A stretch of 64,000 nt of DNA from a virus: positions 62,001 through 126,000 of the IMG/VR virus record IMGVR_UViG_3300031521_000011; one strand, 5' to 3'. This document shows positions 3,376-62,724 of this stretch, one piece after another; position 1 is the stretch's first letter, and each line of letters starts with the position of its first letter. Below the pieces are notes generated by a model, which ran no database searches, was not told the origin of the DNA, and was given only the letters and a program-made list of their open reading frames with translations. The position numbers were made by a program, and so were the translations under genes.

Positions 3376-3397
3376 AAGTCTGGAAGAGGTGGCCTTC

Positions 3398-5224
3398 GTG
3401 AGTAAAAAAACCAAAGAATTCCTCGAAAAATACGCTGAAGAGGAATACCAGAGGATAAAAGAAGAAGAAGCTTTAAACCAGCAGGCGAATGAAGAAGCGC
3501 AAGCCATGGCTTCTAGTGCTGACGAGCAATACAGCGAATTGAAGTCAAAACGGGTCAATCAGAAATATGAAAACCAAAAGGACGGCAAGCCTCTTATGAG
3601 GAATGTTATCGTCCCTTCGATTTTTGCAGAAGCCACATATCTGCTGGACGGTAGGCCATTGCGGCTCAAAAATAGAAAATACTATCGCTTCATTCACGAT
3701 GCTGACATTACCAATGGCCTATTGAAGACGGCCCGCCAGGTTGAAAAGTCTACAACCTTTTCAGTTAAAATTGCAGACGATACGCTTCTCACGCCATTCG
3801 TTAGGAGTCTATATTATGCACCATTAAATGAACAGGTGAAGATGTTCTCCGAAGATAGACTCGGGCGCCTGTTTGTATATTCTCAGGCCGACGTTATCAA
3901 GAGAACATTCATCCGATCTGCAGACAAGCAGAATGTCTTCAATAAATCTTTCTCAAATGGATCATTGATATATCTTAGACACTGTTACGGCCTAGGCGAC
4001 AATATGCGTGGTCTTTCTGTCAACAACACATACGGAGATGAAATTCAGGATATTGATATCGATGCTATCCCTGTTGTCCAGGAGTGCCAGGCCCACGCAC
4101 ATGACCTAGGCCCCGGCATTATGTCCCGGTGGTTTGCCGGCACGCCAAAGACGTTCTCCAATACAATTCAGGAACTCTGGAATCGAAGCAATCAATGCGA
4201 GTGGATCATCCGCTGCCCGGCGTGTAACCGGGACCAGATTCTTGGATTAGAGAATATCACAGAGCATGCTTACCTATGCAGAAATTCAAAATGCAGAAAG
4301 CCGCTCACTGCTGAAATCATATCTGAGTTTGGACGTTGGTTCAAACTCAATGAATCTTCGGAGACATGGGGATTCCATATCAATCAGCTTATGTCTCCAG
4401 CCATGCCGGTGGAGGAAGTTTTTGCAAAGGTTAATACCTATGATAAGCAGAGGCTATTCAATGAGGTATTGGGTCTTAGTTATGAAAACGCAGAAAAGCC
4501 ATTCCCTCCGACATTACTTGCATATATTTCAGCAAATGATTTGAAAATGATGTCTCAGCCTCAAGGATATTTTAATAACGTTCCCATCTTTATGGGTGTT
4601 GACTGGGGCACTGGAGAGCGCTCCTACACAGTCGTTTATATTGGCGCATATAATAAGGAAGGGCAATGGCAACTTCTGTACACCCACAAGTATCACACTA
4701 AGGAAGAGAATGAGAGAGATTACCAGGTTCGCGACATTGCTCGCTTAATGACAATATTTCATGTCGGATATTGCATCGCTGACTATGGTCACGGCTTTCA
4801 GTCAAATCAGCAATTGAAGAATCTCTTTAAAGAGCGTTTTGATGCCATGTTCTATTCCAGTAGTCTTGGGCAACTCAGAATATATGATTCGCAGAAATCG
4901 CACTGGGTCGTCAACAGAACAAGAACCATTCATGAATACGTGACTGCCCATAAAGAAATGCGAGTTGTCTGGCCGGGTGCAAGCAAAGAGGAGATCGAAT
5001 TTCTTTATGAACACCATCTGGCTGAGCAGACGGAATATAAATCCATGCGTCCAAAAGCAGGACAAAATATCCTAATAACCAGAAGTGAAGAGATGTACTA
5101 CTCTCACCCTGCAAGTTCTCCGGATGATGGTATGCATGCTGGCGTGTATGCATATACGGCTTCTTTGATTAAGCCGGCCGGCGGCGCTTCACAATACGGT
5201 TTCGCCGGGGCCGTATCGAGGTAG
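3398..5224 (+). CDS. terL: Terminase large subunit
   Basis: This is the packaging motor ATPase and headful nuclease that pumps DNA through the portal. The ATPase domain has a deviant Walker A, TARQVEKST (111-119; Glu replaces the usual Gly), and Walker B YGDE (212-215). A zinc ribbon follows (C273, C276, C294, C299), as in lambda GpA-like terminases. The RNase-H nuclease domain starts at GVDWGTG (D402), with further candidate metal ligands D462 (IADYG) and D576/D577 (PDDGMHAG). The length, 608 residues, is normal. I chose GTG 3398 over GTG 3389 because GAGGTGG is correctly spaced before it. No small subunit is recognisable nearby. Confidence 0.93.
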   Translation: MSKKTKEFLEKYAEEEYQRIKEEEALNQQANEEAQAMASSADEQYSELKSKRVNQKYENQKDGKPLMRNVIVPSIFAEATYLLDGRPLRLKNRKYYRFIHDADITNGLLKTARQVEKSTTFSVKIADDTLLTPFVRSLYYAPLNEQVKMFSEDRLGRLFVYSQADVIKRTFIRSADKQNVFNKSFSNGSLIYLRHCYGLGDNMRGLSVNNTYGDEIQDIDIDAIPVVQECQAHAHDLGPGIMSRWFAGTPKTFSNTIQELWNRSNQCEWIIRCPACNRDQILGLENITEHAYLCRNSKCRKPLTAEIISEFGRWFKLNESSETWGFHINQLMSPAMPVEEVFAKVNTYDKQRLFNEVLGLSYENAEKPFPPTLLAYISANDLKMMSQPQGYFNNVPIFMGVDWGTGERSYTVVYIGAYNKEGQWQLLYTHKYHTKEENERDYQVRDIARLMTIFHVGYCIADYGHGFQSNQQLKNLFKERFDAMFYSSSLGQLRIYDSQKSHWVVNRTRTIHEYVTAHKEMRVVWPGASKEEIEFLYEHHLAEQTEYKSMRPKAGQNILITRSEEMYYSHPASSPDDGMHAGVYAYTASLIKPAGGASQYGFAGAVSR

Positions 5225-11507: not shown

Positions 11508-13829
11508 ATGGATGTTAAGGAACCAACATTTAGAGCAATGAGCATGAGGGAATTCTCAGCAATCGATCCTCAAGCAAAATCGATTGTGGATTCTTATGGT
11601 GTGGCTGTACCTAAGTCTGCCGCCAGAGAAGAAGAAGGCATGAGCAAGTTTGCCTCATTCCGTCAGAACCTGGTACAGGACCCATACCCATCGCCATTCC
11701 TAAATCTTTCCGATACTAAAATTCCGAACAAGATGTCAGAGTTGTTTGAGCTCTGCCGTTATTTCTATATGTTCGACCCACTCATCGCCGGCGCCATCAA
11801 TTCTTTGGCGACGTTCCCGGTGACAAACCTATATCTCGATGAGAGCAAGATGGCCGACAAGGCCAAGGTGGGCGCTGATGGAAAGAAGACTGGCGTTAAG
11901 GACGATAGTCCGCAGCTTAAAACATATAAAAAGACGCTGTTTGAAAACATCAACCTCAACAAGTTGCTGATTGAGATCGGCATAGATTATTGGTTGTATG
12001 GCAACTGCTTCATTTTCGGCGAGTTCTGGACCAACCCAGATACCAAACAGAAGGAATGGCGGCATGTCGTGAGACTCGATCCGAGTCGCATGATTATCGA
12101 CCATAACGAAGCCACCCGTGAAATCAAGTATAAATGGATGATCCCTGAGAAAATCAGGCGCATCGTTACAATGAAGAAACCCATGAGCGAGTATGAAAAG
12201 ATACCCGATCTGGTAAAGCGTGCTGTCACAAAGAACGAAGCGCTGGTTATCAACCCAAACAATATTTTCCATTTTAGCCGTCCGACGGACAGTATGGGAG
12301 ATACGGTTTGGGGTACGCCGGTAATTGCTAATGTCATGAAACTTCTGATGTACAGAAACGTCATGAGGCAGGCCCAAGAGGCTATCGCTCGGGAGCATAT
12401 CGTTCCTTTCCGCATATATTACTTCGAGAGAAACGCTCAATCCGATCCGATGGTCAACTGGGGCGGCGTCACAGCTGATTTTGCAGCCGAGTTGAACAAA
12501 TCCTCAAAAGACCCAAATTACAAGGTCATCTCCCCTCTGCCGGTTAATGTATTGAACTTGGGCGGCAATGGCCGGGCGCTGATGCTTACACCGGAAATCG
12601 AGCAGGTCCAGGGTGAGATTCTGGCCGGCATGAACGTACCTAGAGAATTTATCTTTGGTGGAGTTACATGGTCGGGCAGCAGCATCTCCCTGAAGATTCT
12701 CGAAAATCAATTTATAACCTATAGGTTATTAATACAGGGATTCTTGAATTTCCTTGTCAAGAATATGGCCAAGGTACGGAATGAATGGCATTCAGAGGAA
12801 GACAACGATGCAATTCCGTCTATCCATATGCAAGATTTGAAAATGCAGGATGACGTTCAGCAGAAGCAGCTCATCGTTCAGATGAACCAAGCTAACAAAC
12901 TTCCTGATGAGCAGCTCTATAAGGCTATGGACATGGATCCTGAAAAAATTGTCGCAGGTCTTGAGGCTGAGGCAATAAAGAGGATAGAGACAGATAAGAA
13001 AATGCAGATCCTCAGGATTGATGCAAATGAGGAAGTGCAGGAAGCAGATATTACCGCGCAAGTAAAACTAGCTCTCTTCAAGGAGAGATTGAGAATTAAG
13101 ATGTCTCAATCTACAGATGAGGTGGAGCGAAACGTTGCAATGCAGATGTTCGGTATGGGGGCAACTCCACAGCCACAAGTTGACGCAATGGGCAATCCGA
13201 TACCCGGACCGGTAGGGCCCGGGGGAGCGCCGGGAGCGCCGCCGGCAGGCCCGGGTGGAGCTCCGGGTACAGACCCAACAGCGCCGCCCGCCGGCCCTGG
13301 ACAACCAATGGCTCCTACGGTAGCAATGGCAGACGCCGGTGATGTTCAAGACCCTGCCGCTGGAAAAGATAAGGCAAATGTGCCGGACCAAATAGATTCT
13401 GTGAATGTCGGCGACACCAAAGATATTGATGCTGAGATTCAAAGAATCTCAGCCATGCCAGATAAGCAAAGAGCTGCAGCTTTAACTCAACTTCCAGCCG
13501 CGCAACAAAAGGCAATTGCAATGAGGATGGAAGCCATGAAAAGCCGCGAGAATTATGGCAAGGGATATGCAGATGCCCAAGCCCTCGCAGAGCGCATCGT
13601 AGCAATGCCTGAGCGTCAACAGGAGGCTGCGCTGAACACTATCCCTGTACAGATGAGGGATCGTGTCATGGTCTTTGTAGAGCAGCTACAGATGCAACAG
13701 CAGGATGACCAAAAGGCACAGCAAGTACAGCAAGGCCAGGCACAGCAAGGCCAGGGCCCGGCGACAGTTGATATGCGTCCAATGCCTGAACAAAAACCAC
13801 CTCGAAGGAAGAGTTTGAACGGAGGTTGA
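11508..13829 (+). CDS. Portal protein with long low-complexity tail
   Basis: The portal is the ring at the capsid vertex through which DNA passes. Residues 60-470 carry the usual portal pattern: a membrane-like start (FMFDPLIAGAINSLATFPVTN type), DYWLYGNCFIFGE, RLDPSRMII, NIFHFSRP, GTPVIANVMKLLMYRN, then GMNVPREFIFGG. After the core is a Pro/Gly/Ala segment (about 570-610, GPGGAPGAPPAGPGG type). Two repeats follow that share the pattern RI-x-AMP-x-x-Q-x-x-AAL, then a Gln-rich tail ending in a basic RRKSLNGG. At 773 residues it is longer than most portals because of this tail. The ribosome binding site is AAGGGGTGA. Confidence 0.85.
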   Translation: MDVKEPTFRAMSMREFSAIDPQAKSIVDSYGVAVPKSAAREEEGMSKFASFRQNLVQDPYPSPFLNLSDTKIPNKMSELFELCRYFYMFDPLIAGAINSLATFPVTNLYLDESKMADKAKVGADGKKTGVKDDSPQLKTYKKTLFENINLNKLLIEIGIDYWLYGNCFIFGEFWTNPDTKQKEWRHVVRLDPSRMIIDHNEATREIKYKWMIPEKIRRIVTMKKPMSEYEKIPDLVKRAVTKNEALVINPNNIFHFSRPTDSMGDTVWGTPVIANVMKLLMYRNVMRQAQEAIAREHIVPFRIYYFERNAQSDPMVNWGGVTADFAAELNKSSKDPNYKVISPLPVNVLNLGGNGRALMLTPEIEQVQGEILAGMNVPREFIFGGVTWSGSSISLKILENQFITYRLLIQGFLNFLVKNMAKVRNEWHSEEDNDAIPSIHMQDLKMQDDVQQKQLIVQMNQANKLPDEQLYKAMDMDPEKIVAGLEAEAIKRIETDKKMQILRIDANEEVQEADITAQVKLALFKERLRIKMSQSTDEVERNVAMQMFGMGATPQPQVDAMGNPIPGPVGPGGAPGAPPAGPGGAPGTDPTAPPAGPGQPMAPTVAMADAGDVQDPAAGKDKANVPDQIDSVNVGDTKDIDAEIQRISAMPDKQRAAALTQLPAAQQKAIAMRMEAMKSRENYGKGYADAQALAERIVAMPERQQEAALNTIPVQMRDRVMVFVEQLQMQQQDDQKAQQVQQGQAQQGQGPATVDMRPMPEQKPPRRKSLNGG

Positions 13830-13836
13830 GGCTATT

Positions 13837-14232
13837 ATGGCCAGCCGCTTCCCAAAAAAGAATATAGCGTCCTTCCTATTGCCGGGTGAGGCCGCAAATG
13901 CTGAAGCAATATTGAATAGTGGTAACTGCATAGTTACCACTATTCGTCCGTATGCGAGTTGTCCAGACACATCGGTTATGCTCTATATCGAGTATGACCA
14001 ACTGGTGGAAAATATCACAGAAAATGACCTTCAAATGAATGACAAAAAAAGAAGGGTTCAGTGTTTTAACCTTAACTGGGGTAATAACCTTGGGAATGTA
14101 GATAGAATACTGAACGATCCAGAATGTAACATCATTCATAAGAAGGAGTTTCCTTGTGCAAAGGGCTCGTTTATATTATTATATATGTATTGGGAAGAAC
14201 CCTTTGCAACAGATGATGTAGAACCTTTTTAG
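13837..14232 (+). CDS. Hypothetical protein, 131 aa
   Basis: GGAGG lies upstream of ATG 13837 (spacing 11). The protein is a mixed alpha/beta 131-residue chain with four Cys and an acidic C-terminus; I recognise no family. Its coding region holds a perfect 14-bp inverted repeat at 13914-13945. It sits 7 bases after the portal gene and 21 bases before the RNA polymerase gene, so all three are probably one transcript. Confidence 0.7.
   Translation: MASRFPKKNIASFLLPGEAANAEAILNSGNCIVTTIRPYASCPDTSVMLYIEYDQLVENITENDLQMNDKKRRVQCFNLNWGNNLGNVDRILNDPECNIIHKKEFPCAKGSFILLYMYWEEPFATDDVEPF
13914..13945 (+). repeat. Perfect 14-bp inverted repeat inside a coding region
   Basis: GAATAGTGGTAACT (13914-13927), loop GCAT, AGTTACCACTATTC (13932-13945). 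A perfect 14-bp hairpin inside a gene is unlikely by chance. In mRNA it would be a very stable stem early in the 13837-14232 gene, about 300 bases before the RNA polymerase start. Confidence 0.85.
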
Positions 14233-14253: not shown

Positions 14254-17200
14254 ATGAATGAACAAGACAGAATAAGGCTGGACCGCGAAGCTTCTGAGAT
14301 GGAGTCCAAGGTCTTGGCGCTCGTCAAATCGAAGTTTCCAATGAAGCTTCAGGGCGGAATTCTGAATGTATCCGACCTGAAGATTGAGCGCCCGGCTGGT
14401 CTGTTTAATCTCACAGCTCAACATAATCTCAAGATGGACGACGGAAGCCTATACGGTGCTCTCCGTGGTCGCTTCAACTTGAGCAATGACAAGGGAAAAG
14501 TGATAAAGCAGACAAATGTGCAAGATATCATCAGCACAATTCCATACAAAACAGTCCGTGGCAGTTACATTGCCGGTGGAAATGAGCGCACAATCTCAGC
14601 TCAGATGCGCCAGGCACCCGGTATTTACACAGAGCGCAATGGAACTGAGGTCATAACCAAGATACGGTTTAATGCAACGAGTGAGTTATGGACCTCACCG
14701 ATCATGATGCATTATGATCAGTCGAAGTCCAAGTTCTTTCTGCGCTTTAAAATCGGAAATAAAACGCTCGATCTGAGCGGCATAACTTTCCTTACTGACA
14801 TCGCTGGCGCATCTATCGGTGAGGTCAAGAAAGCGCTTGGCTCCGAGGCGGTCTATATCGATGTTATGCAGAAGCATCCAACATTCAACGCTACGCTGGC
14901 TGATGTTTATGCCTTATATTTCAAGGATGAGAAGTATGACGGAACAGCCGAGCAGGTTGTGAAACTGCGCGACAGGATCATGGAGCAACCCAACTTTGGC
15001 AACTCTGGCGAAAAAAGAGTCGGAGCTACAGTCGGTGTTGCCTCCAATAAACTTGATAAAAATGTTGTATTGGCTTCAATCACTAAGCTATTTGCCGTAG
15101 CAAGAAATGATGCAGAAGAAGATTCTATCGACGATCTTCGCTTCAAGATCGTACTCAATGACCAGGACTTCATCCTGGGAGAACTGAGCGAAGGCATCGA
15201 CGAGTTTAAGAACAAGGTAAACTTCAGGAGCGGCGCAGACAACGAATTGAAGTTCATCGTTGCTTCTCCGCTTGATAATCTGGACAAGAAGATTGACAGG
15301 TTCATCAAAGCCGATACTAGAAATGCCCCTCAGTCCACCGGTATCGTGGAGGCCCCGGAGACAACAAACCCATTGAATCTGATTTCCTCCACGAAAAAGA
15401 TCACACAAAAGGGCGAGGGTGGCATCTCTGACGAGGCAGCCCGGAACGCTGACAGCGCCAGAAACCTTCAGCCCACTGCCATTACCCGCATCGACCCAGT
15501 TGAATCTCCTGAATCTCAGAAGATTGGATTGGTCCGCCAGCTCGCGCGAAACGCACGGGCTACGAATGGCACAATCGTATCGAAATTCTTTCCAGTAAAA
15601 AAGGGAACTGCCAACATTGATGAAGAGAATATTGTAGAGCTTGATCCGTTTGAGGAATATGACCATCATGTGGCTTTCTATACGCCATCTGAGATCACCA
15701 AGATCAATAACATGATTGCGTTTAAGAAGCCTCTGGTGACAGGCCGATTCAATGGAAAAGTTATGCAAATTCCGAGGGAAGAGATTGAGTATATCGATAC
15801 TTCCCCGAGTGACATCTTTGGCATCTCTGCTGCCCTGGTTCCGTTCGGTGACCACAACGACGGTAACCGTATGTTGATGGCCACAAATCAGCAAAAGCAA
15901 TCTCTGCTGCTGAAGAGCTCAGTGCGCCAGGCTCCCTATGTCCAGGTAGCCATAGATCAAGACAAGAAACAAACATTTGAAGGCCAAATTGGCGAAAACT
16001 CAAACGTTGTGCGTTCTCCTGAGAACGGCGTCGTTGAGTCAGTCGATGGCGGCCATATTGTAATTAAGGGCGAAAGCGGCAAAAGACATTCGCTTGATTA
16101 CTATGACCACTTTCCGATGAACCAGGATAATTTCGCTCATAACGAAGTTCTAGTGAAGCGCGGGGACGAGGTAAAGGCCGGCCAAATGGTGGCTGAAGGA
16201 TGGCACACTAAGGATGGCAAGCTTGCCCTTGGTCTCAATGCCCGTATCGCATATCTACCATATAAGGGTTGGAACTATGAAGACGGCGTGGTTATAAGCC
16301 GCGAATTCGCCGACAGGGTTCAGACTGATGAAATGGAATCCCGCGACATCATAGTATACAAGGATTTCATTGGCGGCCCAGGGAGCGGAGTCAGGGATAA
16401 ATTCATAGAAACTACAGCACAAAGCGCCGGCATGCAGAAGTTGGATAAGGATGGAATCATTATGCCTGGGCAAGAAGTTGGCCCCGGAGACATCCTTGTT
16501 GCCATGCTGAAGCCTAAGGCTCCGGACTATGACGCAATGCGTTCATTCTCCAAGATGATCATGAAGGGCGACGAAACCGAGTTTGAGGATGCCGCACAAA
16601 AAATCGGTGATGGCGAGTACATGCAGGGTAAAGTACTCGATGTACATGTGCTGCCCGGCGGCGGAGATCCCGATGTAAGAAATATAATCCGCATCCGTGT
16701 GAAAATGTCAAAGACACTCAAAATCGGAGATAAAATTTCTGGCCGTCACGGAAACAAAGGAACTATTACCAAAATACTTGGAACGAAGGAAATGCCTCAC
16801 ACTGAAGACGGGCGCTCAATTGACGTCCTGTTTTCTCCGCTGGTTGTTCCTTCTCGTAAAAATGTTGGCCAGCTTCTGGAAGTCAATGCTGGCTTAATTG
16901 CTGAGAAGACAGGTAAGCCATACACTGTTTACAATTTCGATCCAAAAGAAGTGGACAATGTCAAAAACGGGCTTATCAAAATCGGAGTACCAGACGGCAA
17001 AATGGCAGTAATCGATCCTAAAACTGGCAAGGCCTACGAGAACAAAGTCACTGTCGGAAATATGTATATACTGAAACTAAAGCACAAGGTTGATGAAAAA
17101 TTACAATCTCGCTCTTTTGAAGAAGGCGGATTCAACCAGAAATACCTGTCTCCAGAGAAATCCACCGGAGAGGCTGCAGGTGAAAAGGCCAACCCACAGC

Positions 17201-20200
17201 GCCTTGGTGAGATGGAGATGAGGGTGCTGCAGGCCAATCAGGTACCATTCAATATCCTTGAAACCACCACCCTTAAAGGTGATGGCGCTGGCTTTGCAAA
17301 GGATCGCCTTGATATCTTCAGGGCTATGATCAACGGCAGTCCAGAGCATCTCAATAAACTGCGGGACAAGTCCGGCGTACCGGAGTCCTTACGCATCCTG
17401 AAGGACAAGATGTTCGTTATGGGTATGGACGTTAAACCTCTCAATAGGGGCAAAACGGTTCATTCATTGAACGATACATTTAGTGAGCTGATGGTCCTTC
17501 CAACAAGGGATGAAGACATCCTGCGTACAATCGGAAAGAGCAAACGCGTTTATAGTTCAGAGACCTTCCAGTCCACAGACAGGCGGCACGAGAAGTCTGA
17601 TAAGGCTGTACCTGGCGGACTGTATGATCCGGACATCTTCGGAAAAGATGAAGACACGAAGAATGGCCAGGTTGCACGTGAAGCCAGGAGTAAATGGGGC
17701 TACATCGAGCTGGCTACCTATATGCCAAATCCTGTATTGATAGAACAGGCTCAGTATAATCCATATGCATCACTTCTCGGGATGGGTAAGGATAAACTCT
17801 TAAGCCTGATGTCAAAAGACTATGTACTCATCACAAACCCCGGCGATAGCGGTCTTGGTGCAAACACAATCGTTTCTTCAAAGTTAGCTACAGACCTTAT
17901 GATGAATGAGGACAAGCACTTTGAATACAAGGCTGGCGGAGAAGCCTTGATGTATCTTCTGTCAAAGATCAATGTGAACAAGGAACTTGTGGCTACCGAG
18001 GCTGCATTGAAAGCCGCGAAGCTCGACAAAAAAGATGCACTCTTTAAGAAATATTCAGTGCTCAAGATGCTGCAAAAGAACAACATGCAGCCCGGCGACC
18101 TGATGACAAAGATTGTTCCTGTCACACCAAAATACCTGCGCCCGCGCAATGCTCAGGGGCAACAGGTTATAGAGAATGGTCTGACTAAGGTCTACAGTAA
18201 CCTGGTTGATGTAAATGAAAACTCGCGCCTAGCCTTTGAGTCTGGTACGCCAGATATCAAGGCAGAACAAAGCAATGGCCTCTATCGTTCCATGAAATAT
18301 CTCTATGGCGGATTTAAAAATGATCGCTATGTTGATAAAAAGAAAAAGGAAGAATTGGGCGGCATCCTTGATCTCATCGGAAACAAAGAGGGCTTGGTTC
18401 GCGATAAGATGCTGGGCAAGCGCGTTGACTACTCTGGCCGCGCCGTAATCGGTGTCGATCCCACATTGAAGATCGATGAGATTGGTATCCCGGCTGACAT
18501 CGCAAAGACCACTTACAAGCCATTTATCATTAAAGAACTAATCCATCGCGGATATGTTCCAATGGGCGCTGATGGAGAGCGTATGGCGAGGGAAAAGATT
18601 CTTCGATTTGATGACGATGTCAAAAAAGTTCTCGATGACATTGTCAAAGATCGCCCAATCCTCGTAAACCGTGCGCCATCACTTCATAAGTTCGGCATAC
18701 AGGCTATGCGTCCGGTCATTCGCACGACGCAGGATGGACAAGTCGTCAGGAATATCCAACTTAACCCCATGGTCGTAACCGGCTTTGGCGCTGACTTTGA
18801 TGGAGACCAGATGGGTGTGCACGTTCCGCTGAGCGACAAGGCCGTCGAAGAAGCCAGAAACATGATGATGCCCAGCGATAATCTTATTAATCCAACCAAC
18901 GGCAAGATGATCCTTGAAATCCGTCATGAGATGACATTGGGTATATACTACCTGACAATGAATCCAGAACAGACAACTGGAAAGAACATCACCTACTCTA
19001 CATATAAACAGCTTCGCGCAGACTACGAATCCGGCAAGATCAAAACCCGTCAGGCTGTTACCCTTAATGGCAAAATGACCACGGCCGGTCAATGGCTGTT
19101 CTTTGGAATACCAGGGCTCCAGGCAAAGTATCGTAACAAGTATTTCGGACAGACAATGAGCGACAAGTCCCTGAAGGACATGCTACGCGAGATCTATGAC
19201 GACATTACATTTGGCCGCAATGAGACGATGGGCACAATTGATCTATCAAATCTGATGGATAACATCAAGGACCTTGGATTCATGGCATCTACTCGCTCCG
19301 GTCTTAGCATCGGAATCAAAGATCTGGAGTTCCCAGAGAAGTATCAGGATGATATTTTTGAAAGGGCTAGAAAGATCGATGAGCGCCTGAAGGGCGATGA
19401 GGCGGGACTCATTGGCGCATACCAAACACTGGAAGGTGAAGTTGAGAGCGAGCTCAAGGCTGGTGCCATGGGTAAGGATAATCCCGTTACTGCCATGCTG
19501 CAGTCTGGTGCCAGGGGCGACGCCGGCCAGATTCGCCGTATGGGTGGCCTTGTTGGTGTTGGCCGTGATATTGAAAATCATGCAGTCACACCAATTAGAT
19601 CTTCGCATATGACCGGCCTCTCTCCGGGTGAGTACTGGTTGCACAGCTACGACTCCCTGAAGGGCATGGCTGACCGCGCACTGAATACAGAAGCACCAGG
19701 CACGCTTACCAGGGAGCTCTGGTCCGCATATCAAGACAAGGTTATCTCAGAACCGGACTGTCATACAACAAAAGGAATCCTCATCAACAAGGAAGGCAAA
19801 ATTGTCGGACGCTATGCATCAAAAGACATTACAAGCGCCGATGGATCCATAACATACGTGAAGGCTGGACAACCAATCACACAGATAACGCAAACCGCTA
19901 TCGGCAGAGACAAGACCATCAAGTTTATCCAGATCCGCTCACCAGCCACCTGCGCAACCGTCAATGGTCTGTGCCAGAAGTGCTATGGCTGGGAGACCGG
20001 AAGGCCACAACCCCCGAAGCTTGGATACCCAGCCGGCGTTATTGCATCTCAGGCCATCGGCGAGCCGGTGACGCAGATGACGATGAAGACATTCCATGGC
20101 GGCGGCACGTCGTCCAACGTTACGCTTGGCCTGCCCAGAATCCTTGAGATGCTGCACCCTGAGTCATCCAACCTCAACAATATAGCGGTTCTGTCAAAGA

Positions 20201-21144
20201 ATACCGGCAGAGTTGAAGAGATTAAGGATACCGTCAGCGGCACTGATGTTGTTATTGGCAAAAAGAAATACCATATTCCGTTCGATGAGAACGGCAACCG
20301 TAAGCCATTAAGGGTAGTGGTTGGAGATAGTGTTGTTCAGGGTCAGTTCCTTACTGTAGGAAATCTTGATGACCTTGACGCTGCTCGTAAGGACAAGACA
20401 ATGACATCCATTACCAGCGCCCGCCCGGTAGAGATTATGAACTTCGCACCTGATAAGGAAGAAGGACTCAATCAGGCGCAGAATTACATGATTGGCGGCA
20501 TGCAGTACGCAATCGATACCTCCCTGAATAAACAGGACGCTGTTGACCGCCGCCACATCGAGCTGACAGTCGGAAAGCTCACAGAGAATGTCAAAATTAG
20601 CGACTCTGGCGACTCTCCATACATGGATGGCCAAGAAGTCAAACGCAACGTAGCTGACCGTTGGAATGCTGATAATGTGACAATGTCCATCGCCAAACTC
20701 ACGCCAACAGCCAGCATGGATAAGCTTCTTGGAGCTATTGCAGGTGAAACCGTCAAAGATAGAAGCGGACAGATACTTGTAAAGCAAGGTCAGAAGATTA
20801 CCAGAGATATGCTCGGCCCAATCATGCTGGCGACCAGAAACATCAAAGTTACGCCGAGGCCGATCATTTATGTGGCCGAGATGGATTCTCCACAGACGGC
20901 AGCCGATAAGGGCCATGATAACTGGTTCAGCAACCTTGGCCACCAAAACATCGGTAAGCAGCTCTCCAGGGGCGTATCATTCGGTCAAGTGGATAAGCTC
21001 GAAGACCCGCGTGCCCGCATGATGGCCGGCAAGCTCAGTAATATTGGTCAAGAGGGCCATAACTGGTGGGAGAAGTTCAAGAACGGCACAAGCGATTTCG
21101 CAAACACAATCAGTAACAGTCTTCTGGGAATGTTTCAGAAGTAG
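14254..21144 (+). CDS. Single-chain fused beta/beta-prime RNA polymerase
   Basis: This is one uninterrupted 2,296-residue frame. The beta part (about 1-1050) has GGNERTISAQMRQAPG, a rifampicin-region equivalent (TNPL, 371-374), IDPVESPESQKIGL, YEDGVVISR (675-683), catalytic lysines K827 and K835 in GDKISGRHGNKG, and PQRLGEMEMRVL. The beta-prime part (about 1060-2296) has GGLYDPDIFG (1120-1129), GKRVDYSGRAVIG, VNRAPSLHKFGIQA (1471 onward), the catalytic DFDGD (D1514, D1516, D1518), SGARG, a bridge helix, the second zinc site (C1836, C1900, C1907, C1910), and trigger loop GVIASQAIGEPVTQM (from about 1928). The first beta-prime zinc domain is missing. The length is close to bacterial beta plus beta-prime together. 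No alpha or omega is seen. It sits in the head gene cluster, so it may be packaged. Confidence 0.95.
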   Translation: MNEQDRIRLDREASEMESKVLALVKSKFPMKLQGGILNVSDLKIERPAGLFNLTAQHNLKMDDGSLYGALRGRFNLSNDKGKVIKQTNVQDIISTIPYKTVRGSYIAGGNERTISAQMRQAPGIYTERNGTEVITKIRFNATSELWTSPIMMHYDQSKSKFFLRFKIGNKTLDLSGITFLTDIAGASIGEVKKALGSEAVYIDVMQKHPTFNATLADVYALYFKDEKYDGTAEQVVKLRDRIMEQPNFGNSGEKRVGATVGVASNKLDKNVVLASITKLFAVARNDAEEDSIDDLRFKIVLNDQDFILGELSEGIDEFKNKVNFRSGADNELKFIVASPLDNLDKKIDRFIKADTRNAPQSTGIVEAPETTNPLNLISSTKKITQKGEGGISDEAARNADSARNLQPTAITRIDPVESPESQKIGLVRQLARNARATNGTIVSKFFPVKKGTANIDEENIVELDPFEEYDHHVAFYTPSEITKINNMIAFKKPLVTGRFNGKVMQIPREEIEYIDTSPSDIFGISAALVPFGDHNDGNRMLMATNQQKQSLLLKSSVRQAPYVQVAIDQDKKQTFEGQIGENSNVVRSPENGVVESVDGGHIVIKGESGKRHSLDYYDHFPMNQDNFAHNEVLVKRGDEVKAGQMVAEGWHTKDGKLALGLNARIAYLPYKGWNYEDGVVISREFADRVQTDEMESRDIIVYKDFIGGPGSGVRDKFIETTAQSAGMQKLDKDGIIMPGQEVGPGDILVAMLKPKAPDYDAMRSFSKMIMKGDETEFEDAAQKIGDGEYMQGKVLDVHVLPGGGDPDVRNIIRIRVKMSKTLKIGDKISGRHGNKGTITKILGTKEMPHTEDGRSIDVLFSPLVVPSRKNVGQLLEVNAGLIAEKTGKPYTVYNFDPKEVDNVKNGLIKIGVPDGKMAVIDPKTGKAYENKVTVGNMYILKLKHKVDEKLQSRSFEEGGFNQKYLSPEKSTGEAAGEKANPQRLGEMEMRVLQANQVPFNILETTTLKGDGAGFAKDRLDIFRAMINGSPEHLNKLRDKSGVPESLRILKDKMFVMGMDVKPLNRGKTVHSLNDTFSELMVLPTRDEDILRTIGKSKRVYSSETFQSTDRRHEKSDKAVPGGLYDPDIFGKDEDTKNGQVAREARSKWGYIELATYMPNPVLIEQAQYNPYASLLGMGKDKLLSLMSKDYVLITNPGDSGLGANTIVSSKLATDLMMNEDKHFEYKAGGEALMYLLSKINVNKELVATEAALKAAKLDKKDALFKKYSVLKMLQKNNMQPGDLMTKIVPVTPKYLRPRNAQGQQVIENGLTKVYSNLVDVNENSRLAFESGTPDIKAEQSNGLYRSMKYLYGGFKNDRYVDKKKKEELGGILDLIGNKEGLVRDKMLGKRVDYSGRAVIGVDPTLKIDEIGIPADIAKTTYKPFIIKELIHRGYVPMGADGERMAREKILRFDDDVKKVLDDIVKDRPILVNRAPSLHKFGIQAMRPVIRTTQDGQVVRNIQLNPMVVTGFGADFDGDQMGVHVPLSDKAVEEARNMMMPSDNLINPTNGKMILEIRHEMTLGIYYLTMNPEQTTGKNITYSTYKQLRADYESGKIKTRQAVTLNGKMTTAGQWLFFGIPGLQAKYRNKYFGQTMSDKSLKDMLREIYDDITFGRNETMGTIDLSNLMDNIKDLGFMASTRSGLSIGIKDLEFPEKYQDDIFERARKIDERLKGDEAGLIGAYQTLEGEVESELKAGAMGKDNPVTAMLQSGARGDAGQIRRMGGLVGVGRDIENHAVTPIRSSHMTGLSPGEYWLHSYDSLKGMADRALNTEAPGTLTRELWSAYQDKVISEPDCHTTKGILINKEGKIVGRYASKDITSADGSITYVKAGQPITQITQTAIGRDKTIKFIQIRSPATCATVNGLCQKCYGWETGRPQPPKLGYPAGVIASQAIGEPVTQMTMKTFHGGGTSSNVTLGLPRILEMLHPESSNLNNIAVLSKNTGRVEEIKDTVSGTDVVIGKKKYHIPFDENGNRKPLRVVVGDSVVQGQFLTVGNLDDLDAARKDKTMTSITSARPVEIMNFAPDKEEGLNQAQNYMIGGMQYAIDTSLNKQDAVDRRHIELTVGKLTENVKISDSGDSPYMDGQEVKRNVADRWNADNVTMSIAKLTPTASMDKLLGAIAGETVKDRSGQILVKQGQKITRDMLGPIMLATRNIKVTPRPIIYVAEMDSPQTAADKGHDNWFSNLGHQNIGKQLSRGVSFGQVDKLEDPRARMMAGKLSNIGQEGHNWWEKFKNGTSDFANTISNSLLGMFQK

Positions 21145-21991: not shown

Positions 21992-24097
21992 TTAAAATGG
22001 CATATCATCTTCTCTTCCGAGAAACTTTTCCACCACGCTCAGGCTCCTTGTTATTGTCTTTTCGTAATTGAAGCTGTTCATGATGCGCGACGCATACTTC
22101 GCCGACTTGATTCTCCCATCACCGAATGCTATTACGCATTTATCGGTGGTGGTTCTGACGCCACGCCCCACAGCCTGCTTGAGAGCGATTATCATGCTTG
22201 GTATGGAATATTTCCAGAAAGCCCCGGCCTCTTGTGCAAGAACCTTGGCCACCGGGTCCTCTGGGCTGGCGAAGGGTAGTTTATCGAGGAATACACAGCG
22301 TAGACTATCACCGGCAACGTCTACACCCTCAAATAGGGATCTTGTGCCAATTAAGACAGAGTTTGTGTCGTGGGCAAAATCCTTCAGGAGTTTATCCTGT
22401 GGAGCGTCGCCCTGCATAAACACCGTCAGATTCGTTGATTGCCTCAGGCGCACTGCTGCTGCTTTCATATTGTAGACGCTGGTGAATAGACCAAGGACAC
22501 CACCCCCACAGGATCGCACGAGGTCCAGAAAGTTGGAAAGCATGTTGGGCAGGAAGTTTGGCGCATTGCCGTCCAGCGCCCCTTCTGGAAGATACCAAAG
22601 CTGTTGATACTCCAGGTCAAACGGTGAATCAGCAATCATCTCTCTGGCAAAATCCACACCCAACTCAGTCTTGATGTAATTGAATGATTGGCCGGCGGCC
22701 AGAGTAGCTGATGTAAGAATTGTGGTCAGATCTCCATGCTTATCATCCGTTTTAGCATTGCGCATAAAGAAATTCTGACGCATGTAATCATCGACCTTAA
22801 CCGGTTTCGCTCGCAAGGAAATCATGTTGTTGTTTTCCATCTGAACATAGAATGCTGAATTTTTACCTGTCTGAGTACAGATGGCTCTAATATTGCTTAC
22901 GGCCTCAATACCTCGCATAAGGACGCCATTAAGAATTGCACCGACAGCACGCTCGTCGGAATGACTATCCGCAGGCTCACCAAACTCTTCATCATCATCA
23001 GTGAAAAATTCTGGAGAAATCTCATTCTTCATCTCATTGATCTCATTCACAAATACTCTTAATTCATAGAGGAAGTATTCATGCTCCAAAGGAATCGAGA
23101 GGGTTACGGTTCTGGTCGTTGCGGATAATTGAGTATTATTTTGCATGTAATCTGTGAGGTTTAGGAAGAAGGCCTCTGATTTCTTTACCAGATTCCGAAT
23201 TCCCGTCCTATCAACCTTGAAAATATTGGGGTACTTGTTTTCCGCTGCAGACAGCCGGCGCATGAAATTCAGGAACAGATAGTGAGATACTTTCTTTTCT
23301 TGGAAATTTCGGCTTATCTCGGCGATGTTGTGCGCCTCATCACATATCAGCAAATCATAAGGCGGAAGAATTTTTCCTTCTGTCTCAATGTCGGCGAAGA
23401 GGAGATGGTAGTTCGTGATGATAACGTCTGCACCCCGGCATACTCTTTTGGCTCTGGTGTGAAAGCATTCGTTCTGGAATTCACATGACCGGCCGAGGCA
23501 TTCTTCACTATCCGAGCAAGAGAAATTATTCCAGATATCAAAGTTCGGCTTGAAGCTAAGTTCTGCCATGTCTCCGGTTTTGGTATCGATGGCCCATTTC
23601 ACGATGAGGGACATTTCCACCTTATTTTCCGTAAATGACATTTGAACACCGTCAAAGTTGTTTGCGACGGTATCCTGGAGTCTGTGTTTGCATAGGTAGT
23701 TTTGTTTTCCTTTCATATATGCAACACGGACAGGCGCATCTATAACCTTCTCTATGATTTGCGCAATCAACGGCGCGTCTTTGTGGTAGAGCTGTCCCTG
23801 GAGTGCGATTCCGTTGGTAGAGATGACGGCTGTGCGCCCGTGGGTCTTAGCAAAATACATGACAGAGAAAAGATACACGAACGTTTTTCCGAATCCACAA
23901 GGACCTTCAAGCAAGAAGGGTTCACCGTCCTGCAGAGCTTCCATTGCCTTCCTAACCCCTACTATTTGCTCAGGGCGTTCCTTATAATCCATTTTATATT
24001 CGTAGATAATGCCCTCATGCCCAAATACCTTGTCGACAATTGTATCTATGTCATCCGCGTCGCTGACGACTCTCACGTCGTCTGGAAGTACTTCCAT
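21992..24097 (-). CDS. XPD/DinG-type superfamily 2 helicase
   Basis: This is an ATP-driven 5'-3' helicase of the iron-sulfur XPD/DinG type, expected to unwind DNA in replication or repair. Motif I is EGPCGFGKT (about 64-72). Between motifs I and II are the cysteines of a 4Fe-4S domain (YLC, FSC, ECLGRSCEF, NEC). Motif II is ICDEAHN. The C-terminal half has LTSATL, GTRSLFEGVD and QAVGRGVR (motif VI). No exonuclease domain precedes it. The start is ATG 24097, behind GGGAGGG; the longer frame upstream lies inside the nuclease gene. The start overlaps the RuvC-like gene by 47 bases. Confidence 0.88.
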   Translation of the reverse strand: MEVLPDDVRVVSDADDIDTIVDKVFGHEGIIYEYKMDYKERPEQIVGVRKAMEALQDGEPFLLEGPCGFGKTFVYLFSVMYFAKTHGRTAVISTNGIALQGQLYHKDAPLIAQIIEKVIDAPVRVAYMKGKQNYLCKHRLQDTVANNFDGVQMSFTENKVEMSLIVKWAIDTKTGDMAELSFKPNFDIWNNFSCSDSEECLGRSCEFQNECFHTRAKRVCRGADVIITNYHLLFADIETEGKILPPYDLLICDEAHNIAEISRNFQEKKVSHYLFLNFMRRLSAAENKYPNIFKVDRTGIRNLVKKSEAFFLNLTDYMQNNTQLSATTRTVTLSIPLEHEYFLYELRVFVNEINEMKNEISPEFFTDDDEEFGEPADSHSDERAVGAILNGVLMRGIEAVSNIRAICTQTGKNSAFYVQMENNNMISLRAKPVKVDDYMRQNFFMRNAKTDDKHGDLTTILTSATLAAGQSFNYIKTELGVDFAREMIADSPFDLEYQQLWYLPEGALDGNAPNFLPNMLSNFLDLVRSCGGGVLGLFTSVYNMKAAAVRLRQSTNLTVFMQGDAPQDKLLKDFAHDTNSVLIGTRSLFEGVDVAGDSLRCVFLDKLPFASPEDPVAKVLAQEAGAFWKYSIPSMIIALKQAVGRGVRTTTDKCVIAFGDGRIKSAKYASRIMNSFNYEKTITRSLSVVEKFLGREDDMPF

Positions 24098-24797
24098 TAT
24101 TAACCCTCCCTGGTTCATTCCTTTTTTTGTAGATTTGTTCAAACCAATAGTCAAATACGACGCACGAATCTCCTTCGTCGTCTGTTTGTGGAGCGAAACC
24201 ATACGCTCCATACTTCGCTACCATCTTTTCCCTAAGAGCTGCTTTAGCTACATCTGGGAGCGCCCTTAATTCACTCTCGGTATGGCGTGAGGCATATTCC
24301 ATCACCAACCGGCTGGTATTGTGAGGCGCCCGGGCCACCTGAACATCATATTTCAAAACAGGTATCCCATATGTGCCAGCGACTCCCTCAAGGATCCCCA
24401 TGATTTCACCAAGCAACACAGATGTGAGTATCCCATGAAATATCTTATTCTTTTCTGCGATAACCAATTCAGGCACAACGTTTTGAATAAAAGAAGATAT
24501 CTGCCTGCTTATATCATCTTTTATGAAATTGTTCCTGGCTGTCCGGACCTCAACATCGCGTCTTTCCTTTTCAGACTTTGAGATGCTGGTCTCGCCCTCC
24601 ATCCAATAAGTATTTAACAGTGTACCATCACGGCCTGCAGGTAAATACTTCTGGGAGTGCATATATCCAAGCTCTGTTGGTGAATAGTTTGGCGGCATAA
24701 TAGGAGCACTTAAAACTCTAATAATAGTTTCTCCATCAATTTCAGAAACCGTTACGCCTATACACGCCGAAGATAAGTCAAAAGATATGATTTTCAT
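24051..24797 (-). CDS. RuvC-like Holliday junction nuclease
   Basis: It begins with the RNase-H-fold signature IISFDLSSACIGVT (first catalytic Asp, residue 7). Further candidate ligands are the Glu in LVIAEKNKI (about residue 115) and the Asp residues in DDEGDSCVVFDYWF (about 205-216). This order (Asp, Glu, Asp, Asp) fits RuvC-type resolvases used by phages to clear branched DNA before packaging. It is 248 residues, longer than RuvC, with a basic Ser/Arg tail. GGGGGA precedes ATG 24797. Its end overlaps the helicase start, so the two are coupled. Confidence 0.75.
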   Translation of the reverse strand: MKIISFDLSSACIGVTVSEIDGETIIRVLSAPIMPPNYSPTELGYMHSQKYLPAGRDGTLLNTYWMEGETSISKSEKERRDVEVRTARNNFIKDDISRQISSFIQNVVPELVIAEKNKIFHGILTSVLLGEIMGILEGVAGTYGIPVLKYDVQVARAPHNTSRLVMEYASRHTESELRALPDVAKAALREKMVAKYGAYGFAPQTDDEGDSCVVFDYWFEQIYKKRNEPGRVNNGSTSRRRESRQRRG

Positions 24798-26148: not shown

Positions 26149-26168
26149 AAATGCTTCCGGAAGCATTT
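26149..26168. repeat. 10-bp perfect palindrome upstream of HU
   Basis: AAATGCTTCC and GGAAGCATTT meet with no spacer (effective stem 8 bp, loop CCGG). It overlaps the GTATAAG element at 26166-26181 and lies upstream of the HU start. It could be an operator, a 5' hairpin or a weak terminator. Confidence 0.6.
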
Positions 26169-26181
26169 TATTTCTTATACG
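26166..26181 (-). promoter_or_regulatory. GTATAAG-type element, copy c
   Basis: The minus strand reads CGTATAAGAAATAAAA, followed at once by the palindrome at 26149-26168 and then, about 46 bases on, the HU start. Confidence 0.55.
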
Positions 26182-26724: not shown

Positions 26725-27333
26725 CTATTCCCCAACGTGCTTCATCTTTGACGTAGCACACTTTGGACAATACATGTCGTTATTCTCATTATAATACATA
26801 TCCGGTATGTCATTTTTGGCAATCTCGGAATGCTTACAGTTGACGCACGTATAGCGTATATTTGTATTTAATGGTCCTTTTGTTAAGAGATTTGATGGAG
26901 ACTCAGCGAATACAGCCAAAAGATTCTCATTTGTATAATACCAAATGAAGCATGCTTCATTGATAAGTTTCTTGAATCCATTTGTGTATTCCACTGCCAG
27001 CTTATCCATCTCTGATTCTTGGCCAGATATCAGAGACTCGAAATAATCCTTTTTTTCATGTGACAATATAGGATTCTGAAGCATAGATTCATATGTAATC
27101 CTAAGAGTTATTTGCTCTACTACCTCACATGGAACTGCAATCAAAGTGAAATCAAACGGTAAATTAATATAATTGTGATTACTGATAAATGTCCATTTAA
27201 GTGCGTCTGGTATTCTCGGAAGAATACTTGATTCTTTTTCTTTCTTCTCAAGATCGATAGACGCTTCTGTCCAGAACATACTTTGAAGTATATCCATCTT
27301 GTCATAGTATAGCATCCCTTGTTGTATTATCAT
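26725..27333 (-). CDS. Zinc-ribbon hypothetical protein, 202 aa
   Basis: The start is ATG 27333 (GAGGAAGTGAGG upstream); the GTG at 27342 is part of that site. The body is alpha/beta and shows no known catalytic motif. The C-terminus is a four-Cys zinc ribbon (CVNCKHSE and YCPKCA), as in proteins that bind nucleic acids or partner proteins. It is one of three zinc-ribbon proteins in this leftward block, suggesting a set of regulators. Confidence 0.72.
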   Translation of the reverse strand: MIIQQGMLYYDKMDILQSMFWTEASIDLEKKEKESSILPRIPDALKWTFISNHNYINLPFDFTLIAVPCEVVEQITLRITYESMLQNPILSHEKKDYFESLISGQESEMDKLAVEYTNGFKKLINEACFIWYYTNENLLAVFAESPSNLLTKGPLNTNIRYTCVNCKHSEIAKNDIPDMYYNENNDMYCPKCATSKMKHVGE

Positions 27334-27348
27334 ATTCCTCACTTCCTC

Positions 27349-27379: not shown

Positions 27380-27395
27380 TTTTATCACTTATACC
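27380..27395 (-). promoter_or_regulatory. GTATAAG-type element, copy e
   Basis: The minus strand reads GGTATAAGTGATAAAA. It starts four bases after the stop of the upstream gene and precedes a strong terminator hairpin, about 47 bases before the start at 27333. If it is a promoter, the transcript opens with a terminator-like hairpin. Confidence 0.5.
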
Positions 27396-28745: not shown

Positions 28746-28761
28746 TTTTATATCTTATACC
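28746..28761 (-). promoter_or_regulatory. GTATAAG-type element, copy f
   Basis: The minus strand reads GGTATAAGATATAAAA, 24 bases upstream of ATG 28721. No gene lies upstream on this strand; the origin-like region follows. It is therefore a 5' element. Confidence 0.6.
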
Positions 28762-29290: not shown

Positions 29291-31939
29291 ATGCTCGAAA
29301 AGATGACTACATTCAGAATTAAATTTTCTGACATCGAGATAATCGACGGCGAGTTTATAAAACAGGCGTCGGACAATTTCCTGCCCGAAGGGCATATGTA
29401 TGACCCTGATTTCCTTTACATGAAAGTTCGTGCTGTGTCGGCTGGTGAGTACTGGGGCCCGAATAAGAATGCTGACTTCTTCCCTGAAGCAGAACTTGTC
29501 AAATTCTACAAGACGTTCCTTGATGCTCATGCATTTAAGAACCATGAGAATAAAGATGTCGCCAATGCAATTGGTGATGTTATTTCCGCAATCTGGAATG
29601 ACGAGATGAAGTACGTCGAGCTGTTAATCCGGATTGAGCGCTCTCTGGCTCCGACGATTGTACGTGGCTTTGAAAAAGGCTTCATGACAGATGTGAGTAT
29701 GGGATGCAAAATTTCACATAGCATCTGCTCGAAGTGCGGCAATATTGCAAAGATTCCTTCGCAATATTGCGATCATATAAAGTATCAGAAGCACCATGTT
29801 TCTGACGATGGTGTGCGTATTTACGAAATCAACATCGGTCCTAAGTTCCATGATATCAGCGCCGTGCTGAGTGGAGCCGATAGAACAGCGAAGATGACGG
29901 GGTTGTATATTATGGGAGATAAAGTTGCCTTCACCGAATGGTCAGAGATGTCAAAGACGGCATCCATGGTAGACTCGTTTGCTTCGGAAGAATTTGGCCC
30001 CGGCAATCCTTTCTACAAGGTCGCCTCCGCCAAAGAGATCGAAAACTTCAGCATCAATGCTATTGAGTTCAAAATGGGTGATGATACCTTTAGTAAGGTC
30101 GCCGGCACGAAGCAAGGCCTTATGGACAAGGTTGCTGAGATCAAGAAAGAGATCCAGGCAAAGATCATGTCTGTTGCTCGCGGCGATGCAATGAAAACTG
30201 AAGGGCTCGATGAAGTCATTGATCTTTTTAAGATGTTTTACACAGAATTCCTTACACGCGAACAGTGTGTTGAGATTGGGAAGAAAATCAGCAGCATCGC
30301 CCGCAGGGAACAGATGCCGACTTCGGATGTTTTCAATACCCTGATAGGCATGCTGGAAGTGGCCGGCATAGAATTATCTTCTCTTGAGTTTGATCGCATC
30401 ACAAGCCAGTTTATGGATGGCGATGGTGACAGTGATTGCTGCTCTGGCGCTGATGGCTTCCGTCCTGAAAATTACAATGGGATCAAGCAAGAATCAGATG
30501 ACGCCATATCTGAATTTGGTATGGACGGCGGGCTACCGGCGGCGCTTAAATTACTGAGCATCATCCGTAATGCCCAACATAGAGGTCAGCCTATTCCTTT
30601 AAGTGAAAATCAGAACATGGGCACAAATATGCGCGTTATTATTTCACGCATCAACGCTCCGCAGCCGCCAATACATAATCCTTTGCTGGGCGACGAGATG
30701 ATGGATATGATTCGGCCAATGATTCCAGGCCGCAGTATGTATCGCCAGCATCTCATTCCTCGTGTGCTTCGTATTTCAAAAATGGCATCAACTCCAAACA
30801 TACGCAACCTGGAACATTTCATTGGACCGCGCATTCTGAAGACAGCTGCACAGAAAGATCTCAGCTATGACGCTGCCGGCGCAGCCTCGATGTATGCATA
30901 TGCCCAGTATCAGAAACTTCGCGAGAAGCTTGCGTTCAGCAATTGGCTGGATGATGAGTTTGCAAAATATGCTCACGAATTTGGTGCTGAGGGCATCGTG
31001 AATGAAATCGACAGCCTCGGCTCAATGGAGAAGGTAGCCCTTCTTGGTAAGGGATATACTGTTCGCAAAGCCATGCTGATCGGTGCGCCGCTGACATTCG
31101 GATATTCCGCCGCCCAGCGTGCACGCATGAGAAATGGTGAGAATGTTTCTGGCTTTAACCGCTATATTGCAGAGAATCCGGCAAATGCATTTATGATCCA
31201 GGCTCTTATGGGTCCTGCAGCATGGAAGGGCGGAAAAGCCTTAGCCGCCAAGCTTGGTGGGAAAGCAGCTGTTGCTGGTAAAAATGTTGGTGCATCTCCG
31301 GCAGTACATAATACCAAGAATGTTTGGCGCAATAGTAAGCTACTGGCTGACATCAAGGCTGACCCAACCCTCCAGAGGTGGCACGACTTCTTCACGAAGT
31401 ATTCTGAGGATAGCTCTTATATTCTAACCAAAGAAGCGAGTGAAGCTTTCGAGCACTATGACTCCACTGAAGGTGTGGATATATTCAAGAACGAACAGAT
31501 TGACAAAACTGCCATGGAGAAATTTTCATTGACACAGGTACAGGTGGATTCCATTAAGATGTCGATGATCATGGAATGCATGGAGAAGAGTGCAGCCAGC
31601 TCTGGAATTCTGAGGCAAAATTCTCTCACGAGAAATGATGTCTCAAATTTCATTAAGGTTTGTGCTGAATATCTCTCAGGTGAGGTCACAAAAGAAGCTG
31701 GCGATCTTAAAGATGTGATGATGAACACGGGAAGCGAAATGCTGTTTGCGAATCACAATCTGTCAATGCTACCGATTATGCCTGGAGCAGTTATTGACAA
31801 CGTTATATTCCAGGGGATTTTCAAGGCTTTGGAGAAGGCGGGAGCTAAAGGCAAAAGCAAAGGCGAGGTGGCTACGAACCTCGGGCAGAGCGCAATAAAG
31901 CAAATTCAGCAACCGGCAATTCCACCTATAAAGCCATAA
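29291..31939 (+). CDS. Prohead-protease-like protein fused to a long Lys-x-Ala-rich region
   Basis: The first 200 residues resemble phage head-maturation proteases of the HK97/S78 serine type. GEYWGPNKNADFF is followed by KNHENKD with candidate catalytic H85, IGDVISAIW, and DVSMGC with candidate S136. The His-Ser distance (51) is close to HK97 (49). A zinc finger (CSKCGN and YCDHIK) is inserted after the serine, then FHDISAVLSGADRTA. The remaining 680 residues are helical and hold over ten Lys-x-Ala motifs (IKQASD, SKTASM, YKVASA, SKVAGT, LKTAAQ, EKVALL, DKTAME, EKSAAS), plus a Gly/Ala hydrophobic part. It may be a protease-scaffold fusion that cuts itself and other head proteins. AAGAAGGAG lies 13 bases before ATG 29291, a long spacing. 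Confidence 0.65.
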   Translation: MLEKMTTFRIKFSDIEIIDGEFIKQASDNFLPEGHMYDPDFLYMKVRAVSAGEYWGPNKNADFFPEAELVKFYKTFLDAHAFKNHENKDVANAIGDVISAIWNDEMKYVELLIRIERSLAPTIVRGFEKGFMTDVSMGCKISHSICSKCGNIAKIPSQYCDHIKYQKHHVSDDGVRIYEINIGPKFHDISAVLSGADRTAKMTGLYIMGDKVAFTEWSEMSKTASMVDSFASEEFGPGNPFYKVASAKEIENFSINAIEFKMGDDTFSKVAGTKQGLMDKVAEIKKEIQAKIMSVARGDAMKTEGLDEVIDLFKMFYTEFLTREQCVEIGKKISSIARREQMPTSDVFNTLIGMLEVAGIELSSLEFDRITSQFMDGDGDSDCCSGADGFRPENYNGIKQESDDAISEFGMDGGLPAALKLLSIIRNAQHRGQPIPLSENQNMGTNMRVIISRINAPQPPIHNPLLGDEMMDMIRPMIPGRSMYRQHLIPRVLRISKMASTPNIRNLEHFIGPRILKTAAQKDLSYDAAGAASMYAYAQYQKLREKLAFSNWLDDEFAKYAHEFGAEGIVNEIDSLGSMEKVALLGKGYTVRKAMLIGAPLTFGYSAAQRARMRNGENVSGFNRYIAENPANAFMIQALMGPAAWKGGKALAAKLGGKAAVAGKNVGASPAVHNTKNVWRNSKLLADIKADPTLQRWHDFFTKYSEDSSYILTKEASEAFEHYDSTEGVDIFKNEQIDKTAMEKFSLTQVQVDSIKMSMIMECMEKSAASSGILRQNSLTRNDVSNFIKVCAEYLSGEVTKEAGDLKDVMMNTGSEMLFANHNLSMLPIMPGAVIDNVIFQGIFKALEKAGAKGKSKGEVATNLGQSAIKQIQQPAIPPIKP

Positions 31940-37925: not shown

Positions 37926-37948
37926 CCAAATAAAGAGAGGTGCGAAAA

Positions 37949-59775: not shown

Positions 59776-62724
<2,949 letters not shown>

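Follow-up and report, generated by a model that had tools for sequence, protein, structure and literature searches.

Can a tailed phage carry a nearly complete bacterial RNA polymerase (RNAP) core in one polypeptide, and what would such an enzyme do for it? The question is raised by a single gene in a 64,000-nucleotide stretch of viral DNA, positions 62001-126000 of the 168,244-base IMG/VR record IMGVR_UViG_3300031521_000011 (hereafter the window, whose numbering is used unless another label is attached). We find that this gene encodes a one-chain core, beta followed by beta', that is predicted to be catalytically competent. The reading we favor, to which we assign a probability of about 0.55, is that of a virion RNAP in one chain that has a sigma factor of its own and is injected to transcribe early genes from GTATAAG-type promoters.

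An intact gene for a one-chain beta-beta' enzyme

A preliminary description of this DNA had claimed a 2,296-residue frame with beta motifs followed by beta' motifs, and exactly this frame was recovered at 14254-21144 on the plus strand. The open reading frame (ORF) has an ATG start, the ribosome-binding site (RBS) GGGAGG and 2,296 codons with 0 internal stops, and it carries in one chain, in order, the Pfam Rpb2 domains 3 and 6 and then the Rpb1 domains 1-5 (E=4e-67 for Rpb2_6 and E=5e-33 for Rpb1_2). Residues 1144-2126 match bacterial beta' chains in the PDB (E=1e-119), the nearest solved chains being ordinary bacterial beta', and the linker between the beta and beta' parts is short, roughly 10-15 residues. 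As expected of a two-barrel RNAP of the multisubunit type, both barrels are present, with the beta lysines and the beta' DxDxD. It is the single RNAP of the beta-beta' type in the 168,244-base record, where a second copy was not found. The structure predicted for the beta part was usable (predicted local distance difference test [pLDDT], 68), while that for the beta' part was poor (pLDDT, 63; template modeling [TM] score, 0.18 versus known beta'), and therefore no claim is built on the beta' model. The features of the gene are as follows.

14254-21144, plus strand: single-chain beta-beta' RNA polymerase, 2,296 amino acids (aa) (Pfam, PDB matches, residue mapping)
14254-17457, plus strand: beta part, residues 1-1068 (predicted model matches bacterial beta chains along its entire length)
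17458-21141, plus strand: beta' part, residues 1069-2296 (Pfam, PDB; N-terminal zinc finger absent)
16726-16761, plus strand: beta active-site lysines (K1065/K1073 equivalents), GDKISGRHGNKG (residue alignment)
18787-18807, plus strand: catalytic Mg2+ loop GADFDGD, N458 changed to G (alignment; an intein lies directly 3' of the loop in relatives)
19759-19983, plus strand: second zinc site, 4/4 Cys kept (alignment)
20062-20106, plus strand: start of the trigger loop, EPVTQMTMKTFHGGG (alignment)

Active-site residues and predicted rifampicin resistance

Individual residues were checked by alignment to Salmonella RpoB and RpoC, with positions given in Escherichia coli numbering. The beta residues K1065, K1073, R1106, and H1237 and the beta' residues R425, D460/D462/D464, and R731 are kept, as are M932 and H936 of the trigger loop, in which R933 is replaced by Lys. 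All the catalytic residues checked are retained except Asn458 (Gly) and Arg780 of the bridge helix (Leu), and the four Cys of the N-terminal (first) zinc finger of beta' are lost. The earlier claim that nearly all conserved motifs are present thus held for the active-site Asp and Lys residues, the second zinc site, and the trigger loop and had to be given up for zinc finger 1, Asn458, and R780. At the rifampicin contacts D516, H526, S531, and R540, the enzyme has E, S, T, and D, respectively; since these four main contacts are changed, the one-chain RNAP is predicted to be rifampicin resistant.

Relatives, fusion forms, and phylogeny

Relatives were found by alignment queries of IMG/VR; a single-protein query of viral contigs gave none. 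The closest one-gene RNAPs, L021 (2,276 aa) and L073 (2,301 aa), are 40-45% identical to that of the window, have similar gene neighbors, and carry the loop NADFDGD, versus GADFDGD in the window. Since they come from two other metagenomes and have the same one-gene form, the fusion is not an accident of assembly. A further fused RNAP, L053 (9980-17815), contains a 514-residue LAGLIDADG intein directly after NADYDGD, at the same site as the apparent split intein described below. Besides the one-gene forms, IMG/VR holds about ten two-gene and about twenty three-gene versions; in Salmonella phage Arash and Vibrio phages D69 and D181, beta is fused to the N half of beta', and the C half of beta' is a separate gene.

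Two oddities were seen among these relatives. In Vibrio phage D181 (L004, 2956-8470), an intervening stretch with a homing endonuclease in it splits the fused beta gene. In L022 (9944-14071), beta plus the N part of beta' ends with NADFDGD followed by SVAGDTYVIVQD...KDVE and the stop, apparently a naturally split intein, and a separate ORF in L154 (1-1887, minus strand) encodes a C-intein (Intein_splicing, E=4.7e-7) that continues into TMQVHVPV... of beta'; the L022/L154 catalytic region would need trans-splicing for its completion.

The tree was built from 17 sequences under a mixture model and included five bacteria (none from Campylobacterota or Rickettsiales) and no direct reference sequences from the 2020 mReC survey; its root depends on few bacteria, and its deep branches are long. 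The final tree excludes the YerA41-type enzymes, in which beta' precedes beta, since their branches are long. The phage RNAPs split from the five sampled bacteria with a support of 100/100, so that the enzyme falls outside these five; a placement inside a bacterial host group had been named as a danger sign in the preliminary description. The window enzyme, L021, and L073 form one clade (100/100). L053 groups instead as the sister of the two- and three-gene forms (100/100), and monophyly of the one-gene forms as a whole was rejected (approximately unbiased test, p = 0.00014). Full fusion is therefore paraphyletic and, by parsimony, the older form within the group, with fissions occurring later; the fused RNAP was probably ancestral in this phage group and later split into two or three genes.

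These data also bear on whether the gene is an artifact or a decayed relic, i.e., an assembly join of separate rpoB and rpoC genes or an inactive enzyme. All that speaks for this is that zinc finger 1 is missing and that Asn458 and R780 are replaced, whereas the active-site aspartates and lysines are kept, the architecture recurs in the two further metagenomes, the enzyme is nonbacterial in the tree, and the 6.9-kb frame is open, with neither the stop nor the frameshift for which the preliminary description had advised looking. We consider such an origin very improbable.

A sigma-like protein and polymerase in the particles of a relative

Pfam searches of the genome for sigma regions 2 and 4 gave no clear match, and the sigma-like gene was located via Arash.

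52137-52979, plus strand: sigma-like protein, 280 aa, homologue of the Arash virion protein Gp10 (homology; conserved in RNAP relatives)

The window protein matches Arash Gp10 with E=2.8e-8 and 25% identity, and Gp10 itself matches Pfam Sigma70_r3 (E=9e-9). Of the 10 records searched, 8 have the gene, and all four one-gene phages are among these. Two other sigma-like sequences were noted. A small ORF in the window (3117-3272, minus strand; 77 aa) has a weak match to sigma region 4/helix-turn-helix (E=0.002) and follows closely on a GTATAAG site with one mismatch, at 3332, and the relative G003 has, besides its Gp10-like protein, a clearer second sigma factor (L155, 1000-1659; 219 aa; region 4, E=8.6e-13).

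In purified Arash particles, liquid chromatography-mass spectrometry (LC-MS) detected 116 proteins; Gp206, which holds beta and the N half of beta', gave the most spectra of any of them (3,516, with 128 unique peptides); the capsid protein gave 1,333, Gp216, the C half of beta', 1,210, and the sigma factor Gp10 467 (PMC10585845). The authors explained the particle RNAP by either early transcription or carry-over (PMC10585845). The presence in particles of Gp206, the syntenic homologue of our enzyme, together with Gp216 and sigma lends real but indirect support to the packaging idea, and the RNAP of the present phage may likewise be packaged.

The same findings can be read differently: the RNAP would be a nonvirion enzyme made in infection for late genes, its abundance in Arash particles would be carry-over, and GTATAAG would be read by the host RNAP, perhaps with a phage sigma factor. 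Carry-over was raised by the Arash authors themselves, in whose particles as many as 116 proteins were detected (PMC10585845), and the motif described below resembles an extended -10 element except for its last base. However, the spectra of Gp206 outnumber those of the capsid protein, which is more than carry-over easily explains, and the distribution of the motif also argues against this account, which we regard as unlikely, though the most serious competitor of a virion enzyme.

A promoter-like motif on the replication strand

The promoter-like motif GTATAAGNNATAAAA, found from upstream k-mers, precedes many genes of the replication strand; expected counts were taken from third-order Markov simulations and reversed-pattern controls. 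In the three closest one-gene phages, the form TATAAGNNATAAA has 28 sites (this record, every one of them on the minus strand), 13 sites (G002), and 29 sites (G003, where each lies opposite the RNAP strand); 0.6, 1.0, and 0.2, respectively, were expected, and the reversed pattern gave none. An RBS and start codon follow within 70 nucleotides (nt) at 26 of the 28, 9 of the 13, and 27 of the 29 sites. The motif, which has a TATAA-like core, often lies directly after the terminator of the previous gene and just 5' of the RBS. No common motif was seen when the upstream regions of plus-strand genes were inspected by reading. Sites in the window include the following.

1660-1672, minus strand: TATAAGGAATAAA, ahead of the minus-strand gene 786-1616
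26167-26179, minus strand: TATAAGAAATAAA
26669-26681, minus strand: TATAAGTAATAAA (exact 15-mer including flanks)
27381-27393, minus strand: TATAAGTGATAAA, ahead of the minus-strand gene 26725-27342
28747-28759, minus strand: TATAAGATATAAA

Arash has a related form, in which GGTATAAG is followed by a GTGTAAACA-like stretch and then the start region. In the whole Arash record, GGTATAAG was counted once on the forward and 30 times on the reverse strand, opposite the RNAP strand, and in six further two- or three-gene phages it was found 22-33 times on one strand versus once on the other, always opposite the RNAP strand. Over 114 kb of Arash it occurred 15 times (2.0 expected), whereas the sigma70-like GGTATAAT occurred once (1.2 expected). 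Reading by the host RNAP sits poorly with this enrichment and with a core common, opposite the RNAP strand, to phages whose RNAPs are about 25% identical. That the core persists while the polymerases diverge to this extent suggests that each phage's enzyme, with its sigma factor, recognizes it, and we infer the same for the present phage. The motif, with a core common to Arash and most of the relatives, is new here.

A transcript or operator element, such as a repressor site or an RNA processing site, could also produce a recurrent motif, the RNAP then using other sites. In favor of this, some phages that have an enzyme of this family lack the motif. Its position ahead of the RBS, often after a terminator, its TATAA-like core, and its strand bias nevertheless have the look of a short promoter, and we judge this explanation quite improbable.

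Genomic setting

The neighborhood of the RNAP gene is made up of the following features.

3389-5224, plus strand: terminase large subunit (homologue of Arash gp1)
11508-13829, plus strand: portal protein (homologue of Arash gp204), upstream neighbor of the RNAP gene
13837-14232, plus strand: small ORF between portal and RNAP genes, in the position of Arash gp205
21992-24211, minus strand: helicase (DEAD_2/Helicase_C_2, by domain match), within the minus-strand block 3' of the RNAP gene
29291-31939, plus strand: prohead protease-like protein (homologue of Arash gp222)
34243-35241, plus strand: major capsid protein (homologue of Arash gp226)
37940-39520, plus strand: tail sheath of a contractile tail (homologue of Arash gp236)

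The presence of terminase, portal, protease-like, capsid, and sheath genes identifies a contractile-tailed phage. The RNAP gene has the portal gene on one side and, on the other, the minus-strand block and then the protease-like and capsid genes, which bears out its earlier assignment to the head, or late, module. The plus strand of the record carries the structural, RNAP, and sigma-like genes; among the large minus-strand genes are those for DNA polymerase III alpha, a primase-like protein (Toprim), an NAD-dependent ligase, helicases, thymidylate synthase, and deoxycytidine monophosphate (dCMP) deaminase. A scan of genome contigs returned haloarchaeal RNAPs through one shared peptide and gave no hint of a prophage or host.

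Several other genes were noted. The window contains a tail collar protein with several collagen-like repeats (59776-62724). Outside it lie a 461-aa protein with WGR, poly(ADP-ribose) polymerase (PARP) regulatory, and PARP catalytic domains (G000:C1:56188-57573, minus strand; L012, 16188-17573) and adjoining nicotinate/nicotinamide phosphoribosyltransferase-like and phosphoribosyl pyrophosphate (PRPP)-synthetase-like genes (G000:C1:235-2621, minus strand; L010), a pair resembling the NARP1 NAD+ reconstitution pair (Namat/Adps). Also outside is a Cys/Gly-rich repeat frame (CSGQCSSACAGGCHGC...) of at least 338 aa (G000:C1:128230-130572 region; L161); an "intein" match in this genome was rejected, as it proved to be this repeat protein.

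Proposed mechanism

According to the virion-enzyme reading, the RNAP would be made late, alongside the structural proteins; the core and the sigma-like protein would be packaged into the particle and injected together into the next host cell; and early transcription would start on the opposite strand, where the replication and metabolism genes lie, from promoters of the GTATAAG type. The beta-beta' fusion could remove the need for an alpha dimer as an assembly platform and could hold the enzyme together through packaging and injection. The intact gene, the conserved active site and gene position, the sigma-like gene, and the motif were observed here, and RNAP and sigma proteins in particles were observed in Arash (PMC10585845); packaging, injection, and promoter use are what we infer for the present phage.

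Several points weigh against this reading. Asn458, which contacts the ribose of the nucleoside triphosphate (NTP), is Gly in this RNAP. The window protein resembles sigma factors weakly (PHROG, E=5e-4; its family versus a true sigma by hhalign, E=0.005 and a probability of 7%). L053, L029, and Vibrio phage D69 have these RNAPs too but show no enrichment of the motif, and in G002 the RNAP and most of the motif sites share one strand. Finally, the Arash authors state that the enzymes may be carry-over from high expression (PMC10585845).

More tentatively, and with somewhat less than even odds, the whole group could descend from an ancestor whose complete one-chain RNAP core was packaged and injected with its own sigma factor to transcribe from GTATAAG promoters independently of the host, the two- and three-gene enzymes being later fissions. 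With a single enzyme occurring in this family as one, two, or three genes, the fusion and splitting of RNAP subunits can be tested directly, and so can the question of how so large an enzyme could be packaged and injected. A single-chain, sigma-dependent, predicted rifampicin-resistant RNAP with a short promoter could offer a simple model of a transcription system that lacks alpha and omega.

Comparison with known systems

Phage multisubunit RNAPs, virion RNAPs, and minimal single-chain RNAPs are already known (PMC7598289, PMC10770324). The closest system is that of Arash (Gp206 and Gp216, with the sigma factor Gp10; PMC10585845). Its enzyme is homologous to that of the window and is likewise encoded after a portal gene and a small ORF; its terminase, portal, protease, capsid, sheath, and sigma genes also have homologues in the window, and the motif core is the same. 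It differs in having two genes, with beta and the N half of beta' in Gp206 and the C half in Gp216, at about 28% identity; the break between the N and C parts of beta' is absent from the window, where the ORF is uninterrupted. Gp206 is labeled "beta subunit" in the literature, and the fusion is not mentioned (PMC10585845). The enzyme had been called unusual for a phage, which is true of a near-complete one-gene fusion but not of large fusions as such, since the Arash type also has beta and the N half of beta' in one gene.

The mReC survey (2020) described bacterial-like beta and beta' in tailed phages, apart from the cellular enzymes in trees as here, and reported no fusion. It selected for NADxDGD and at least 800 aa per subunit, and the GADFDGD loop of the window enzyme would therefore have excluded it. 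The mReC families PF07068 (capsid) and PF03237 (terminase large subunit) were not found in the window, whose capsid protein had no Pfam match at E<=1 and whose terminase large subunit matches PF05876. The RNAPs of the phiKZ/AR9-type jumbo phages are likewise phage multisubunit homologues, one set of which is packaged and injected, but they are split into 4-5 polypeptides, and a classical sigma factor was not found (PMC7598289, PMC13282480); in a 2026 review of jumbo phages, the multisubunit enzymes described are all split. The enzymes of crAss-like phages (gp66), YonO, and Thermus phage P23-45 also have two barrels in one chain, and gp96 of P23-45 is a virion enzyme, but they are minimal and highly diverged (PMC10770324), whereas the window chain comprises nearly all of a bacterial core and shows the standard Pfam domains.

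Nothing that we found in the literature searched, which left most subscription papers outside, describes a phage polypeptide that contains a near-complete bacterial-type core. To our knowledge, this would be the first phage enzyme so described. Among cellular enzymes, Helicobacter and Wolbachia have fused rpoB-rpoC, with the C terminus of beta joined to the N terminus of beta'. Unlike these cellular fusions, the fusion in the window groups with phages, outside the five sampled bacteria.
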